DNA from: Lachnospiraceae bacterium
GTDB taxonomy: Bacteria; Bacillota; Clostridia; Lachnospirales; Lachnospiraceae
Reading direction: 5' to 3'
Assembly: GCA_902363665.1 (NCBI GenBank)
Contig: CABJAW010000031.1
Coordinates: 1-17,829, forward strand
Length of the DNA stretch: 17,829 nt
Positions 1-7,808 of the stretch are shown piece after piece. A program made the position numbers and the translations under genes. Below the pieces are notes generated by a model. It was not told where the DNA came from. It ran no database searches and saw only the letters and a list, made by a program, of their open reading frames with translations. The first letter of the stretch is position 1. Every line of letters starts with the position of its first letter.

Positions 1-227
1 CCCTCTCAGGTCGGCTATGGATCGTCGGCTTGGTAGGCCGTTACCCCACCAACTACCTAATCCAACGCGGGCCCATCCTGTACCACCGGAGTTTTTCACA
101 CTGTATCATGCGATACTGTGCGCTTATGCGGTATTAGCAGCCGTTTCCAGCTGTTGTCCCCCTGTACAGGGCAGGTTGCCCACGCGTTACTCACCCGTCC
201 GCCACTCGGTATTAAACTCTCTGATAA
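1..227 (-). rRNA. rrs: 16S ribosomal RNA, 5' part, partial and internally deleted
   Basis: Read on the minus strand, the segment contains classic conserved 16S stretches: GAGTGGCGGACGGGTGAGTA (191-209 region), CTGCTAATACCGCATAAG, AACTCCGGTGG and the GACCTGAGAGGG-like end at the contig edge. The variable regions fit Lachnospiraceae. The 5' end is odd. AGAGTTT-AT (normally the first ~18 nt) runs directly into ACCGAGTGGCGG, which normally lies about 80 nt further in, so the helix containing V1 and the GCTGGCGGCGTGC stretch is absent. The rest of the gene is beyond the window. The 5' boundary (about 227) is estimated from the usual distance to AGAGTTT. Whether the deletion is biological or an assembly error cannot be decided here. 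Confidence 0.93.
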
Positions 228-440
228 AATGTGTTTGATTCGGTCAGAATAACTACTTGGCTATTCATTCCCTTTTTACTGTTTTTAAAGGTCAGTTCCT
301 TGAATACAATAGAAAACTGCTCCGCACTTTTCTATTGTCATGAATAAAACTTTTTAAGAATTTTCAAGGTTGTTTCACTGTTCAGTTATCAAGGTTCTTA
401 AGTTGTTTCTCTGTTGTCCCCCTACCGGAGCAACTCTGAT
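228..440 (-). other. rRNA operon leader (pre-16S region)
   Basis: This is the transcribed spacer between the downstream rRNA promoter and mature 16S. It holds a perfect 11-bp inverted repeat, ACAATAGAAAA at 306-316 and TTTTCTATTGT at 328-338, which would form a leader hairpin. On the minus strand it also has CTTGATAACTGAACAG (about 378-396) and CCTTGAAAATTC (about 359-370), sequences common around Clostridia rRNA genes and reminiscent of boxA-type antitermination/processing signals. The antitermination role is inferred. No protein gene is seen. Confidence 0.7.
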
Positions 441-4550: not shown

Positions 4551-4561
4551 TCCATTACTTC

Positions 4562-4791
4562 TTATAATATGATGTAAGTGTCAAAAGTATAAATTGCGTT
4601 TGTGCTCGCACAAATAAGCAATTTATGCTTATTGACACGCCGAACACCGAAAACGGAATAAAATGGTGTGAACACGCCATTTTATGGGAGTTTGAGGTGT
4701 TCGAGGATTGCGGGAATTGCATAGCAATGGAGCAATCCGGTTACATCAGTGAGTGGCAAAATTTATTTTTGACACTCACATCATAATATAA
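4562..4791. mobile_element. MITE-like non-coding element with nested hairpins
   Basis: A ~230 bp segment is bounded by imperfect ~33-bp terminal inverted repeats (4562-4597 and 4756-4791) sharing the core TATGATGT-AGTGTCAAAA. It contains four successive hairpins: 4579-4638 (GTGTCAA...TTGACAC, almost fully paired through AAATTGC/GCAATTT), 4641-4703 (CGAACACC...GGTGTTCG enclosing AAAATGG...CCATTTT), 4705-4737 (GGATTGC...GCAATCC enclosing ATTGC-ATA-GCAAT) and 4749-4779 (GTGAGTG...CACTCAC). No open reading frame is seen. The layout fits a non-autonomous transposable element or a folded RNA. No second copy is in the window, and target-site duplications are not clear. Confidence 0.65.
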
Positions 4792-4871
4792 TAATACACC
4801 TTCGTCTCATACGGTCGCACAGTCAGCTCTTCGTTGTACGCGGCCTCGGCATAGTTGCTGATCAGAAGCTC
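4776..4871 (-). pseudogene. Remnant of the C-terminus of an alpha-glucosidase-like (GH13) protein
   Basis: The minus-strand frame reads ELLISNYAEAA, then LTVRPYETKVYYY, and stops. This looks like the last beta strands of GH13 oligo-1,6-glucosidase/alpha-glucosidase proteins, which typically end in a LISNY...LRPYEA.VY pattern. No upstream catalytic part exists; the frame runs into unrelated sequence at about 4872. The stop codon (4776-4778) and the last few codons fall inside the terminal repeat of the folded element at 4562-4791, so that element has replaced or abutted the natural end. The family call rests on recognition of about 28 residues. Confidence 0.5.
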
Positions 4872-4971: not shown

Positions 4972-5850
4972 GTAACTATTCAGAACCAGCTTTACTCAAA
5001 GATGAAATCAGGGTGACCTGAGATTGCATTTTTGATTGCTTGGTAAGCATTATCTCCCTGCTTGTGTGCCGTGCCAACGTAGGACATGATTTTCAGATAA
5101 TCTCTGGCACCTTCCTCAGTTCGGAAGCATCCAGATACTTTGGTCTTGACCTTTATCATCCGAAGATCACGTTCCGCCTGGTTGTTATCAAACGGGACAT
5201 TGAAGTTATGGATAAAAAGGCAGACTGAGGCCTTGTAATTCGCAAGGCGTTCTACCAGGGCAAGGATTTTTCCTTTTTTCTTCCGGCCACGTTTTTTCTC
5301 CGTGGTTTCGGGAAGTGGATTTTCCTTCCGGGCCTGTTCGATAAGTTCATCATACTTCTTATCGAACTTATGATAGTGATAATAGCTCAGAGAGTCCTTA
5401 CCTTTCTCTACAGCTTTATCTTTGACCTTTTTCATTTCCAGTAAAAGGTCTGTAAATGCAGATGCCCACTTCTGCTCAGGATGATTTTCATCAATCCCCG
5501 TTAATTCACGGAGAAGATGGGCACAGCAGACTGCATGCTGAATATCCGGATAATTCCAGTAGGAAGACCAGCAGTCATGCATGGCAATCCCTTTGAATTC
5601 CGGGAGAACACCGCATTGTTCCATGCCTGCGCTTCCACGTTTGGGACTGATATCAAGATAGGTGTATTCACAGTTTGAGGCATCATGAACCCACCAGAGT
5701 TTTTTATCCACTCTGATTCCTGTTTCGTCGAAATGTCCAAGTGCAGAACCAATCATTTTATCCTTGATTTTACCTACTGTTTCACTCAGACTGTCAGCGC
5801 ATCTTTTTACCATGCTGCTGATTGTTCCTGTTGCAATTGGAATGTTAAAA
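4972..5850 (-). mobile_element. IS66-family insertion sequence, truncated
   Basis: The element keeps one terminus: 4972 begins GTAACTATTCAG, and IS66 elements characteristically start with GTAA. The other terminus is missing because the element breaks at 5842-5850, where it joins an XRE regulator fragment through the shared nonamer AATGTTAAA. The tnpA and tnpB accessory genes and the 5' part of the transposase gene are absent. Confidence 0.8.
4992..5850 (-). pseudogene. tnpC: IS66 transposase (TnpC), N-terminally truncated
   Basis: About 285 residues of genuine IS66 transposase remain out of the usual ~450-530. They start at FNIPIATGTISSMVKRCAD and end GHPDFIFE. The three catalytic acidic residues of the DDE domain are still present: GHFDETGI, IAMHDCWSSYW and NNQAERDLRM; the family-specific GCFRTEEGARDYLKIMSY block follows. 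The N-terminal zinc-binding and leucine-zipper parts are gone. The open frame continues upstream to an ATG at 5906, but those first 19 codons are the antisense of the XRE fragment and not transposase. It is unlikely to be active in transposition. Confidence 0.85.
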
Positions 5851-6012
5851 CAATCCACCGTTGATAATATCATCCGCGGCACAAGCAAAAATCCAAAGGT
5901 CCGCACGCTTCACAAGATTTCAAACGTCTTTGGAATGACTTTAAGTGAATTTCTTGATTTTCCAGAGCTGAATAATTATTCCTTCGATGATGAAGAAGAT
6001 TCTGAGCAATAA
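5845..6012 (+). pseudogene. XRE-family regulator, C-terminal half only
   Basis: The plus-strand frame reads LKQSTVDNIIRG (recognition helix region of an XRE/Cro HTH), then NPKVRTLHKISNVFGMTLSEFLDF and an acidic tail (FDDEEDSEQ). This pattern is usual for small Lachnospiraceae XRE proteins of about 75-110 residues. The first half of the HTH is missing because the IS66 fragment abuts it at about 5845. The plus-strand frame upstream of this point is only the antisense of the transposase. Confidence 0.8.
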
Positions 6013-6074
6013 TCTGAGCTGAGACCTTTTGGCGATAACCTTTCCACCTGACGCCTTAAACGCACTCTGCAGAC

Positions 6075-6103
6075 TATACAAACGTTCTGAGCCGTGGTAT
6101 ACT
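6075..6103 (+). promoter_or_regulatory. Promoter of small-peptide mRNA, locus 1
   Basis: -35 TATACA (6075-6080, 4 of 6 consensus), 17-nt spacer, -10 TATACT (6098-6103), with an extended -10 TGG (6095-6097). Transcription would start near 6110, giving an ~80-nt leader. Confidence 0.7.
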
Positions 6104-6141
6104 GATCTCACGGAAAGTCAGAACACAGAAAAGGCGGTCTA

Positions 6142-6183
6142 CCCTCTTCGGAGGGGCAACCCTCCAGACGAAAGAAAGGAGGG
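6142..6183 (+). promoter_or_regulatory. Leader RNA switch controlling the ribosome binding site of the peptide gene
   Basis: Four complementary blocks follow one another: CCCTC (6142-6146), GGAGGG (6150-6155), CCCTCC (6160-6165) and GGAGGG (6178-6183), the last being the Shine-Dalgarno sequence. Three perfect but mutually exclusive stems are possible: block 1 with 2 closed by a UUCG tetraloop, block 2 with 3 closed by a GCAA tetraloop, and block 3 with the ribosome site over a 12-nt loop. The 2:3 stem leaves the ribosome site open; the 1:2 stem frees block 3 to hide it. The direction of switching in the cell is inferred. Confidence 0.75.
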
Positions 6184-6189
6184 ATGCCG

Positions 6190-6282
6190 ATGTACGTTAC
6201 ATACTCTGATTTAATTCAGGCAGGTATCTTCATCGTCTCTCTCATAGGATTGTGCTACACAGTCTTTGGGAGAAAAAAATAG
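6190..6282 (+). CDS. 30-residue single-pass membrane peptide, putative type I toxin
   Basis: The peptide starts MYVTYSDLIQAG, has a hydrophobic core (about residues 8-26, including IFIVSLIGLCYTVF) and ends in a basic GRKK tail. This is the size and shape of type I toxins and of the small 'holin-like toxin' peptides of Firmicutes; similarity to a named family could not be tested. The ATG at 6190 is preferred: GGAGGG ends 6 nt upstream, whereas an in-frame ATG at 6184 touches the ribosome site. The gene has its own promoter, a switchable leader and a convergent RNA overlapping its last codons. The long inverted repeats around it, and a second locus of the same design at 16707, support a real gene. 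Membrane toxicity is inferred. Confidence 0.75.
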   Translation: MYVTYSDLIQAGIFIVSLIGLCYTVFGRKK

Positions 6283-6376
6283 CCGCCCACTACTCGCAAT
6301 AGTGAACGGCTGGTGCTAAAAAGTACCAAGTTTTCATCTTATCAAGGGTAGACCGTGTGTTTCTGGCTTTCCCTTT
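6273..6376 (-). ncRNA. Convergent small RNA, putative antitoxin of locus 1
   Basis: The predicted RNA starts near 6375 from the promoter at 6382-6410 and ends at a strong intrinsic terminator. On the minus strand AGCCGTTCACTA pairs with TAGTGGGCGGCT across a short loop (6281-6311), followed by a run of seven T (6273-6279). Its length is about 100 nt. Its last part is antisense to the final codons and 3' hairpin of the peptide mRNA. Its 5' end (GGGAAAGCCAGAAACACACG) copies the 5' end of the peptide mRNA in the same polarity. Base pairing with the toxin mRNA through the 3' overlap, and with a read-through 3' arm, is inferred. Confidence 0.7.
6311..6336 (+). terminator. Weak terminator-like hairpin of the peptide mRNA
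   Basis: GGUGCU (6312-6317) pairs with AGUACC (6322-6327) over an AAAA loop, with TTTT at 6331-6334. It lies after the larger hairpin shared with the convergent RNA. It is weak, so part of the mRNA may run on into the right inverted-repeat arm and stop near 6374-6377. Confidence 0.4.
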
Positions 6377-6381
6377 TCTAT

Positions 6382-6410
6382 ACTATAACACTTCTTTTTT
6401 GATTCTTCAA
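6382..6410 (-). promoter_or_regulatory. Promoter of the convergent RNA, locus 1
   Basis: On the minus strand: -35 TTGAAG (6405-6410), 17-nt spacer, -10 TATAGT (6382-6387). A perfect 7-bp inverted repeat, AACACTT (6388-6394) and AAGTGTT (6410-6416), frames the spacer and could be an operator or a hairpin in read-through RNA from jetD, whose stop codon is at 6417. Confidence 0.75.
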
Positions 6411-6416
6411 GTGTTT

Positions 6417-7808
6417 TCAATTGAACTTATCTGAGACTATATGAAGAAAACGTCTTCCTACCATATCCCCCAGCAGCTCCTCCAGCAGATTCTCCTGATA
6501 CCCGGCCATCTGCTCTTCTTTCACACACCTTGCCGTCCCGCGAAGCAGGGGATGGTGAAGCTGCTCCAGCTTTACCAGACCATTTTCTGTGATGTGTTCT
6601 GCGGAAATGCTCTTCTGATAATCCTCCGGGGACATACGCCAGATCTGAATCCCGTCTCCGAATTTCTGCCACAGCCGGTCGGCAATCCGCATTCCGTCCG
6701 GATCGATATCGCCGCTGTAGTAAATGGATGCGCCGCTTTTTAAAAGCAGCGGAAGCAGTTTCTGCGCTGCCGCGCGTGGCTGGCCGGAGGTGCAAAGCAG
6801 CGTATACGGCAGGATTTTCTCGCCGGTATTTTTCTGTTCGCCCTGCTTTTCCTCACCGCTTTTTATCAGATGGGCCACCAGATAGCTGAAGACCATCTCA
6901 TTCTCCACAATATAAATCCGCTCTCCGAGCGGCTCTGCTCCGGTTACTCCGCGCAGGTTCTCCATCGTGATCACAAAGGGCTGGCGCAGTCTGCAAAACG
7001 CCTCATAAGCAGGATGTGCCTGCTGTCCCAGGTAGAGCAAAAGCCCGAATGCATGCAGACTTGAAGAAACATTGTCCGGCAGGATCCCGGCCTGCTCCAT
7101 CCGCTCACGCCACTCATAGGAATTTTCTGGCAGCTCTGCCTGTTCCAGCCAGCATACTGCCTGTGTCAGAAGCTGGCCGGGCAGCGTTCCACGGTCAAAA
7201 TAATGCGGATTGCCCGAAATATCCGCTGCAAATACGGCAAGTGGAACTTCAAGTTCATCCATGTTTCTTCCTGCCTCCAGCCTTGTAAATGCCTTCGCGA
7301 TATGGCATACCAGCTGTTTTGTCTGCTGCGGGTCTTCGGCGTATTCCCGGTTCAGGATCTGATAACCATACTTTTTTTGTGAAAATGCCGCTTCAAACCA
7401 CCTGACTGCTGCGGACTCCTGGCCTGTTTTTTCAAAAAGAACCGCTGCGGTTTCCTGCCAGAAATCGTTTTTTTCTTTTTCCTTCGTTTCTTTTTGTTCC
7501 TGCCTTGAGCACAACGGCTTTCCAAAGTATTCCTCCAGAAGTGCTTTCAGTTCTATCGGCGCAAACCTTGTTTTCTGCAATCCTGCCTCAAATTCAGAAA
7601 CAGAAAAACGGACCTCTTCCCCATAATATATTTTTCCGGTAATCCCGCCGACTGCGCGGCGTTCTTCTTCTGAAGCGCCGTGCAGCGTGATTTTCCCGGC
7701 TGCCCTTCCGTAGGAGCGCCATTTTTTCCAGAGCTCCCCGAAACAGCGTCGATATTCTTCCCTGCTTTTAAAGTAGGTCGCACATTCCCTATCCTTATTA
7801 TTGTGCAT
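6417..7808 (-). CDS. jetD: Wadjet protein JetD, toprim-domain nuclease (type II)
   Basis: The product has 463 residues from the ATG at 7808, which has GGGAGAG about 9 nt upstream and overlaps the jetC stop by 11 nt; an in-frame ATG at 7829 has no good ribosome site. The C-terminal part carries the topoisomerase VI-A-like toprim fold: IYIVENEMVF (glutamate about residue 302) and YYSGDIDPDGMRIADRL (acidic residues about 367-371). The family (DUF2399/TIGR02679 type) is known as the nuclease subunit of Wadjet, cutting DNA that the JetABC motor has loaded and extruded. The N-terminal region, with the lysine- and glutamate-rich insert around 105-120, is less conserved and probably binds DNA. It is the last gene of the operon. 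No terminator is seen between its stop and the convergent RNA promoter at 6410. Confidence 0.9.
   Translation of the reverse strand: MHNNKDRECATYFKSREEYRRCFGELWKKWRSYGRAAGKITLHGASEEERRAVGGITGKIYYGEEVRFSVSEFEAGLQKTRFAPIELKALLEEYFGKPLCSRQEQKETKEKEKNDFWQETAAVLFEKTGQESAAVRWFEAAFSQKKYGYQILNREYAEDPQQTKQLVCHIAKAFTRLEAGRNMDELEVPLAVFAADISGNPHYFDRGTLPGQLLTQAVCWLEQAELPENSYEWRERMEQAGILPDNVSSSLHAFGLLLYLGQQAHPAYEAFCRLRQPFVITMENLRGVTGAEPLGERIYIVENEMVFSYLVAHLIKSGEEKQGEQKNTGEKILPYTLLCTSGQPRAAAQKLLPLLLKSGASIYYSGDIDPDGMRIADRLWQKFGDGIQIWRMSPEDYQKSISAEHITENGLVKLEQLHHPLLRGTARCVKEEQMAGYQENLLEELLGDMVGRRFLHIVSDKFN

Follow-up and report, generated by a model that had tools for sequence, protein, structure and literature searches.

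A probable Hol_Tox-family type I toxin-antitoxin locus in Lachnospiraceae with complementary toxin mRNA ends

In the bsrG/SR4 system of Bacillus subtilis SPbeta, binding of the antitoxin SR4 at the 3′ end of the toxin mRNA lengthens the stem holding the bsrG Shine-Dalgarno (SD) sequence from 4 to 8 bp, as described in three reports (PMC4147584, PMC6562991, PMC7430163). TxpA/RatA and BsrE/SR5 have 3′ overlaps of about 114-120 nt and a sequestered ribosome site, and TxpA/RatA is reported without an antitoxin-induced change at that site (PMC6562991, PMC7430163). For bsrE/SR5, whose structures are described as similar, probing is reported to have found no ribosome-site change on antitoxin binding (PMC7430163). 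Direct repeats and a shared terminator are described for par (PMC4147584). In the Salmonella timP/TimR system, the antitoxin disrupts a pseudoknot on which translation initiation depends (PMC11228461). That long-distance 5′-3′ pairing silences a type I toxin mRNA (aapA) and that an antitoxin can break a translation structure (timP) is already known. Among the titles and abstract openings covered by our search, outside which most subscription papers lie, we found none on such loci in Lachnospiraceae or on mimicry of a Hol_Tox leader.

Here we analyse a locus in a 17,829-nt stretch of Lachnospiraceae DNA (the window) that, judged from its sequence, very probably encodes a small bacterial toxin restrained by a short opposing RNA, as in a type I toxin-antitoxin system. 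Its central feature, which the original prediction for this site had missed, is that the two RNAs have near-identical starts, and hence that the ends of the toxin mRNA are complementary to each other. Such toxin mRNAs need to be silent during synthesis and translatable later, and the pairing of the ends, conserved and in part covarying, offers a concrete candidate for the switch.

Architecture of the locus

The original prediction had proposed a two-RNA locus around a small membrane peptide, and both promoters, the leader, the 30-residue open reading frame and the minus-strand terminator all lie where it had placed them (Table 1). By eye, the peptide has a hydrophobic core and a charged GRKK C terminus. 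It passes the curated cut-off of the Pfam family Hol_Tox (PF16935) marginally (23.4 versus 23.3 bits), so the peptide family is not new, as had been suggested, but one that Pfam already holds. The SD sequence lies in AAAGGAGGG, which ends 6 nt upstream of the ATG at 6190; an alternative start, the in-frame ATG at 6184 immediately after the SD, is less likely.

Table 1 Predicted features of the toxin-antitoxin locus, with positions in the window
Feature	Position	Strand	Basis
Toxin mRNA promoter, TATACA-17-TATACT, TG before -10	6075..6103	+	Promoter scan; conservation
Panhandle 5′ arm at the start of the toxin mRNA, with 6112-6126 and 6134-6145 paired	6112..6145	+	Fold, covariation
Arm 1, CCCTC, alternative SD partner when the 3′ end is absent	6142..6146	+	Leader-only fold; inference
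Arm 2, GGAGGG, partner of arm 3 in the panhandle form	6150..6155	+	Fold
Arm 3, CCCTCC, anti-SD	6160..6165	+	Folds
SD, GGAGGG (arm 4)	6178..6183	+	Sequence; kept in relatives
Hol_Tox toxin peptide, 30 aa + stop	6190..6282	+	PF16935 23.4 bits, cut-off 23.3; dN/dS 0.28
Panhandle 3′ arm, also terminator-like hairpin of the plus RNA, then T-rich run	6345..6372	+	
Antitoxin RNA (predicted, ~100 nt), complements toxin mRNA from last codons to 3′ end	6273..6375	-	
Antitoxin terminator, stem-loop then T-run (RNA U-tract)	6311-6281, 6280-6273	-	Terminator scan
Antitoxin RNA promoter, TTGAAG-17-TATAGT, TG before -10	6382..6410	-	Promoter scan; conservation

Four promoter-like sites occur between 5500 and 7000, compared with 1.7 expected, so both promoters are weak evidence on the window alone. 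The predicted overlap of the two RNAs spans 97 nt in the window (median of 93 nt among the 100 units of the folding set described below). As had been proposed, the convergent RNA reaches the last codons of the peptide: the U-tract of its terminator and the last pair of the terminator stem are encoded within these codons and the stop. This double use may have shaped the basic tail of the peptide.

The plus RNA has its own hairpin followed by a T-rich run at 6345-6381 (-5.8 kcal/mol), recognized by eye and by folding and absent from the terminator-scan list. The only plus-strand terminator-like site that the scan listed, at 6311-6328, is weaker; if it were used, the mRNA would end before the 3′ arm.

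Conservation in relatives

We identified relatives by scanning genome contigs with a degenerate nucleotide pattern that covers the ten N-terminal residues of the peptide. At least 119 stretches matched, containing 125 peptide copies whose first ten residues are identical by construction and whose length is mostly common too. Among the matches listed (80 titles), 33 were Lachnospiraceae and 26 named Blautia, Roseburia, Lachnoclostridium and other genera, which we take to be members of Lachnospiraceae; the other 21 were labelled Clostridium, Eubacterium, Eubacteriaceae, Eubacteriales, Clostridia or bacterium. In even draws of genomes, the peptide was matched in 50 of 250 from the family and 8 of 391 from the class, and Hol_Tox matches at E values up to 0.01 occurred in 43 of 291 class genomes (32 above the cut-off). 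Searches of plasmid and phage DNA with the 441-bp locus gave no match; the peptide had none in plasmids and three weak ones in phages (E 2-9). Neither the locus nor the scanned subset of the first loci (8 of 119) gave an Rfam match that reached the gathering score. A sub-threshold match to rli38 on the minus strand of the locus (E 3.8) was taken as chance.

For alignment, 126 units were reduced to 114 by removing short ones, and the folding set of 100 was obtained by removing 14 with end gaps or without an SD match. A further 48 matches yielded 28 units once duplicates and short ones were removed, 27 of them from the 250-genome family draw. Promoters and terminators were counted in 137 units, that is, 142 minus those with gaps at the anchors. 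When the scan was anchored at the start of each RNA, the plus promoter reached 8 or more of 12 consensus matches in 110 of the 137 units and the minus promoter did so in 130 (mean 8.6, shuffled 5.8), the latter count depending on the allowed distance and dropping to 62 of 137 at the same threshold when that distance was too short. A TG accompanies the plus promoter in 102 units; in the minus promoter, TTG is kept in 117 units, the spacer is 17 nt long in 120, and 123 have TG ahead of the -10. The T-rich tract of the antitoxin terminator (five or more T among the 9 nt preceding the complement of the stop) is present in the last codons of the peptide in 129 of 137 relatives. Most relatives found from the peptide keep the flanking promoters and the antisense T-tract, which the original prediction had proposed as a check. 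On the plus strand, where we required a hairpin of -4 kcal/mol or lower and five or more T within the following 8 nt, the 3′-arm hairpin and T-run occur in 106 of 137 relatives and an earlier site of the same kind in 34. GGAGG or GGGGG lies within 20 nt upstream of the peptide start in 121 of the 125 copies.

The peptide frame is under purifying selection (median dN/dS of 0.28 over 6,960 pairs with pS of 0.1-0.7, from 129 of 142 sequences). Relatives with a broken frame and the rest of the locus kept, which the original prediction had named as counting against it, are rare: one of the 125 copies (L042) has an early stop, two are cut by the end of their stretch (the fourth copy of L035, and L081) and a few, such as L014, L085 and L113, have altered C termini. 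Collectively, the Hol_Tox peptide, purifying selection and the conservation of both promoters and the antisense terminator support the type I reading as the best one.

Two observations concern individual relatives. In L042, the copy with the early stop (2020-2049) retains its leader and downstream parts, where shown, and is possibly a decaying copy. Toxin-antitoxin peptide genes also occur in tandem, with four copies in L035 (5941-7094, 370-380 bp apart), three in L152 and two each in L107 and L112.

Complementary ends of the toxin mRNA

The plus RNA starts with GGAAAGUCAGAACACA...CGGUCUACCCU and the minus RNA with GGAAAGCCAGAAACACACGGUCUACCCU. Because both RNAs begin almost alike, the two ends of the toxin mRNA complement each other: its first 34 nt largely match, as a complement, the last 28 nt before the U-tract. 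Common to both RNAs is CGGTCTACCCT, at 6135-6145 (+) and 6345-6355 (-), giving two matches where 0.11 were expected. The 270-nt plus RNA folds into a closed panhandle of -111 kcal/mol, and none of 200 shuffles (-70.4 +/- 5.2) was as stable; energies for folded RNAs of this length are rough, and the relatives considered below are not independent of one another.

Covariation also supports pairing of the two ends. Among the 365 columns of the 114 aligned units, the top covarying pair was 6121/6363, whose members lie 248 alignment columns apart, with 0.47 false pairs expected in the all-against-all scan despite this rank. The pair is formed in 98 of 107 units, with three Watson-Crick types (U-A 56, G-C 21, C-G 14), and seven compensatory same-branch changes map to the tree. 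In 7 of 1,000 simulations, the highest-scoring pair anywhere in the leader-tail matrix reached its score. The outer helix (6112-6125 with 6359-6372) has a covariation sum of 148, compared with -2 +/- 20 when simulated without coupling, and none of 1,000 tree-aware simulations was as high. The inner helix C, which is nearly invariant and whose register is uncertain owing to differences in tail length, showed no significant covariation (241 of 1,000 simulations). The covariation analysis of the leader suggested in the original prediction thus came out positive for the outer leader-tail helix and not for the inner one.

Most of the 28 further units kept the pairing, sometimes with both arms rewritten (NL155, NL150 and NL128), and pair 6121/6363 was formed in 18 of the 24 with letters on both sides; in five (NL139, NL143, NL145, NL152_1015 and NL153), a leader of this kind was missing from the aligned position. 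In all 142 units together, the outer helix shows 21 double Watson-Crick changes, compared with 0-6 in six slid controls. One-sided transitions in both helices favoured G.U over A.C by 120 to 70 (p = 3.5e-4), and two of the six slid controls leaned to G.U as well, not significantly (31:18 and 44:29). As a G.U in the plus RNA corresponds to an A.C in the opposite strand, and would count as a mismatch if only identity mattered, this excess points to pairing within the toxin mRNA, although sequence alone cannot fully separate self-pairing of the plus RNA from a need for both RNAs to start alike.

When leaders and tails were exchanged between units, the own leader-tail duplex, trimmed to the transcript, was stronger than the mean of the swapped duplexes in 90 of 100 units (0 of 5,000 permutations, with relatedness not removed). 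For the window, the trimmed duplex scored -43.9 versus -35.6 swapped, with 5 of 99 partners better; with promoter DNA included it was no better than the swapped mean (-50.3 versus -50.8).

A distant set consisted of Hol_Tox-type loci from the class draws, with peptides mostly quite different: 41 picks gave 31 after removal of eight wrong ORF picks and two duplicates, and 26 after removal of five without a plus promoter. In these 26 Clostridia loci, the own trimmed duplex averages -47.3 kcal/mol versus -31.4 kcal/mol swapped, is stronger than the swapped mean in all except L209 and is the best of all partners in 19 (0 of 20,000 permutations). The five dropped loci were compared with promoter DNA included: L193, L208 and L217 were best of all, L214 was intermediate (three partners better) and L220 unfavourable (12 better). 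In several distant loci, L191 and L198 among them, the tail-pairing part of the leader extends, by eye, into the anti-SD. In B. subtilis bsrG, located in SPbeta by its peptide, the trimmed leader-tail duplex scored -41.0 versus -25.9 +/- 4.4, with 2 of 500 shuffles as low. Computation thus gave us the architecture, its conservation, the outer-helix covariation and the complementarity in distant relatives.

Predicted opening of the ribosome site

In the 100 folded units, the predicted cost of opening the SD in the full-length RNA was 5.0 kcal/mol. Masking the last 36 nt raised it to 9.4, and either masking the antitoxin footprint or shuffling the tail raised it to 9.3; opening was cheaper at full length than with a masked tail in 88 units and dearer in 4. 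The gain in the window is small (4.1 kcal/mol at full length versus 4.9 with the 36-nt mask, 5.8 with the footprint mask and 7.3 shuffled), and the SD is mostly paired even in the full-length fold (mean unpaired 0.15 versus 0.035 for the leader only). Full length was cheaper in 20 of the 26 distant loci and dearer in 3. For bsrG the costs were 5.4 at full length versus 7.7 masked, and published probing, in which the SD stem lengthens, agrees with the predicted direction for that system. These costs suggest that the 3′ end would aid translation and that the antitoxin, its complement, would be a decoy leader.

The reading that we favour, with a probability of roughly 0.6, is a chromosomal type I toxin-antitoxin system of the Hol_Tox family, similar to BsrG/SR4, in which a panhandle would open the SD and the antitoxin would close it. 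The first ~34 nt of the toxin mRNA would pair, internal loop included, with the last ~28 nt before the U-tract. Without this pairing the leader would fold back and shut the SD; the panhandle would remove part of the anti-SD material, the SD would open more easily and translation of the complete mRNA would be favoured. Since the antitoxin RNA complements the 3′ end, its first nucleotides nearly repeat the leader of the toxin mRNA. By capturing the 3′ end, it would displace the leader and return the SD to its closed form, and the resulting duplex of ~95 bp might be a target of RNase III. Once the antitoxin was exhausted, the membrane peptide would be made. The direction of this switch is predicted from the folds, and we infer transcription, toxicity and RNase III cleavage. 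Two points slightly lower our confidence in an activating panhandle: the findings reported for bsrE/SR5 and the terminator-like site that lies earlier on the plus strand. The panhandle predicts paired base changes that are directly testable.

A general rule for Hol_Tox/BsrG-type loci in Clostridia and Bacillus, in which pairing of the 3′ end with the leader activates and the antitoxin is a leader mimic competing for the 3′ end, is one that we put forward tentatively and at somewhat less than even odds. The bsrE/SR5 and txpA/RatA systems, with no ribosome-site change reported, argue against an exceptionless rule. If the rule were true, the inverted repeat at the locus ends would be a signature for finding unannotated loci from DNA alone.

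Other functions of the panhandle would also be consistent with part of these data. It might mainly protect the 5′ and 3′ ends from nucleases, with the antitoxin only creating an RNase III target, as for RatA/txpA. The pairing does join the extreme ends, the RNA overlap is ~95 nt, and RatA and SR5 binding is reported without a ribosome-site change, suggesting degradation only (PMC6562991, PMC7430163); but protection leaves unexplained both the role of the leader part beside the anti-SD and the mostly one-directional shift in SD opening across distant loci, and we regard it as unlikely. Quite unlikely, too, is the logic of hok and AapA, in which 5′-3′ pairing silences the full-length mRNA, a nuclease must trim the 3′ end and the antitoxin acts on the trimmed form. 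Silencing long-distance interactions were shown for aapA/IsoA (PMC6733600), and the panhandle here is very stable, yet with the 3′ end masked the SD becomes more difficult rather than easier to open in the 88 units and 20 distant loci given above, and in the predicted fold the SD is not occluded by the long-distance helix but lies outside it and is easier to open with it. Direct masking of the SD by the antitoxin, whose 5′ end copies the anti-SD side of the leader (the minus RNA and the leader share CGGUCUACCCU), is very unlikely, as pairing of the antitoxin to the SD region hardly exceeds chance (-14.1 versus -13.7 kcal/mol for shuffled antitoxin in 100 units).

Genomic neighbourhood

A four-gene Wadjet type II operon, jetA-jetB-jetC-jetD, occupies 14655-6417 on the minus strand (PADLOC JetA2-D2 models), and the jetD stop is 6 nt from the antitoxin -35. 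No terminator was listed between jetD and the antitoxin promoter, so the operon transcript may end at the antitoxin terminator. This raises the possibility that the toxin guards the operon, with read-through adding antitoxin and Wadjet loss freeing the toxin. The close spacing (jetD end at 6417, antitoxin -35 start at 6410) with no listed minus-strand terminator between, and the match of all four Jet proteins to type II models, would fit such a guard. However, a Jet gene was found in none of the 119 first peptide loci (up to 8 kb each) and a Hol_Tox-like peptide in none of 21 JetD loci (3.2-4.3 kb each), and the peptide occurs anywhere in 5 of 21 JetD genomes versus 50 of 250 genomes overall, showing no enrichment. 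A guard function is thus highly improbable, and the adjacency looks incidental. A JetD search of genome contigs and viral contigs returned no relatives.

On the other side, an IS66-type transposase remnant (4992-5906, minus strand; PF03050 from profile position 33 on) adjoins the toxin-antitoxin locus. A Clostridiales-1 RNA (RF01699, 131 bits) at 4570-4748 lies inside 39-nt inverted repeats that span 4559-4794 and are 82% complementary, an arrangement resembling a small non-autonomous mobile element. The window start cuts a 16S rRNA gene fragment (1-239, minus strand; RF00177 model positions 61-300). That the inverted repeat and short reading frame are by-products, for example of a mobile element end, with no toxin at all, is scarcely credible despite the transposase remnant and repeat-flanked RNA within 2 kb, given the compensatory changes in the arms, the purifying selection on the frame and the positioned promoters on both strands.

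Comparison with known systems

The locus shares convergent RNAs and a small membrane peptide with Fst/par RNA I-RNA II of Enterococcus, and the original prediction had likened its plan to par. It differs in having an inverted repeat, as in bsrG, and separate terminator-like sites. We found no direct repeat common to both RNAs in 6000-6440, where the only direct repeat (6014, 6426) lies outside both, and no shared bidirectional terminator, as the minus-strand site (6311-6281) and the plus-strand sites (6311-6328 and 6345-6381) are different hairpins; the locus thus does not follow the par plan.

Like AapA/IsoA of Helicobacter and hok/Sok, the toxin mRNA has a 5′-3′ long-distance interaction, but in those systems the interaction silences the mRNA and 3′ trimming is needed (PMC6733600), whereas the fold predicts the reverse here. 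With B. subtilis TxpA/RatA and BsrE/SR5 it has in common the 3′ overlap and a sequestered ribosome site. As proposed for this locus, the antitoxin of timP/TimR breaks a structure that translation requires, although in timP that structure is a pseudoknot.

BsrG/SR4 differs from the locus in peptide sequence, in the length of the antitoxin (~100 nt here, 180 nt for SR4; PMC7430163) and in the 3′ arm, which here forms both the end of the plus RNA and the first nucleotides of the antitoxin, whereas bsrG has a separate terminator hairpin after the arm. The two are alike in their small membrane peptides, in convergent RNAs that overlap at the 3′ end and in leader-tail complementarity, which for bsrG was computed in this analysis. 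Pairing of the ends would explain how an antitoxin acting at the far 3′ end alters the ribosome site, as reported for SR4.
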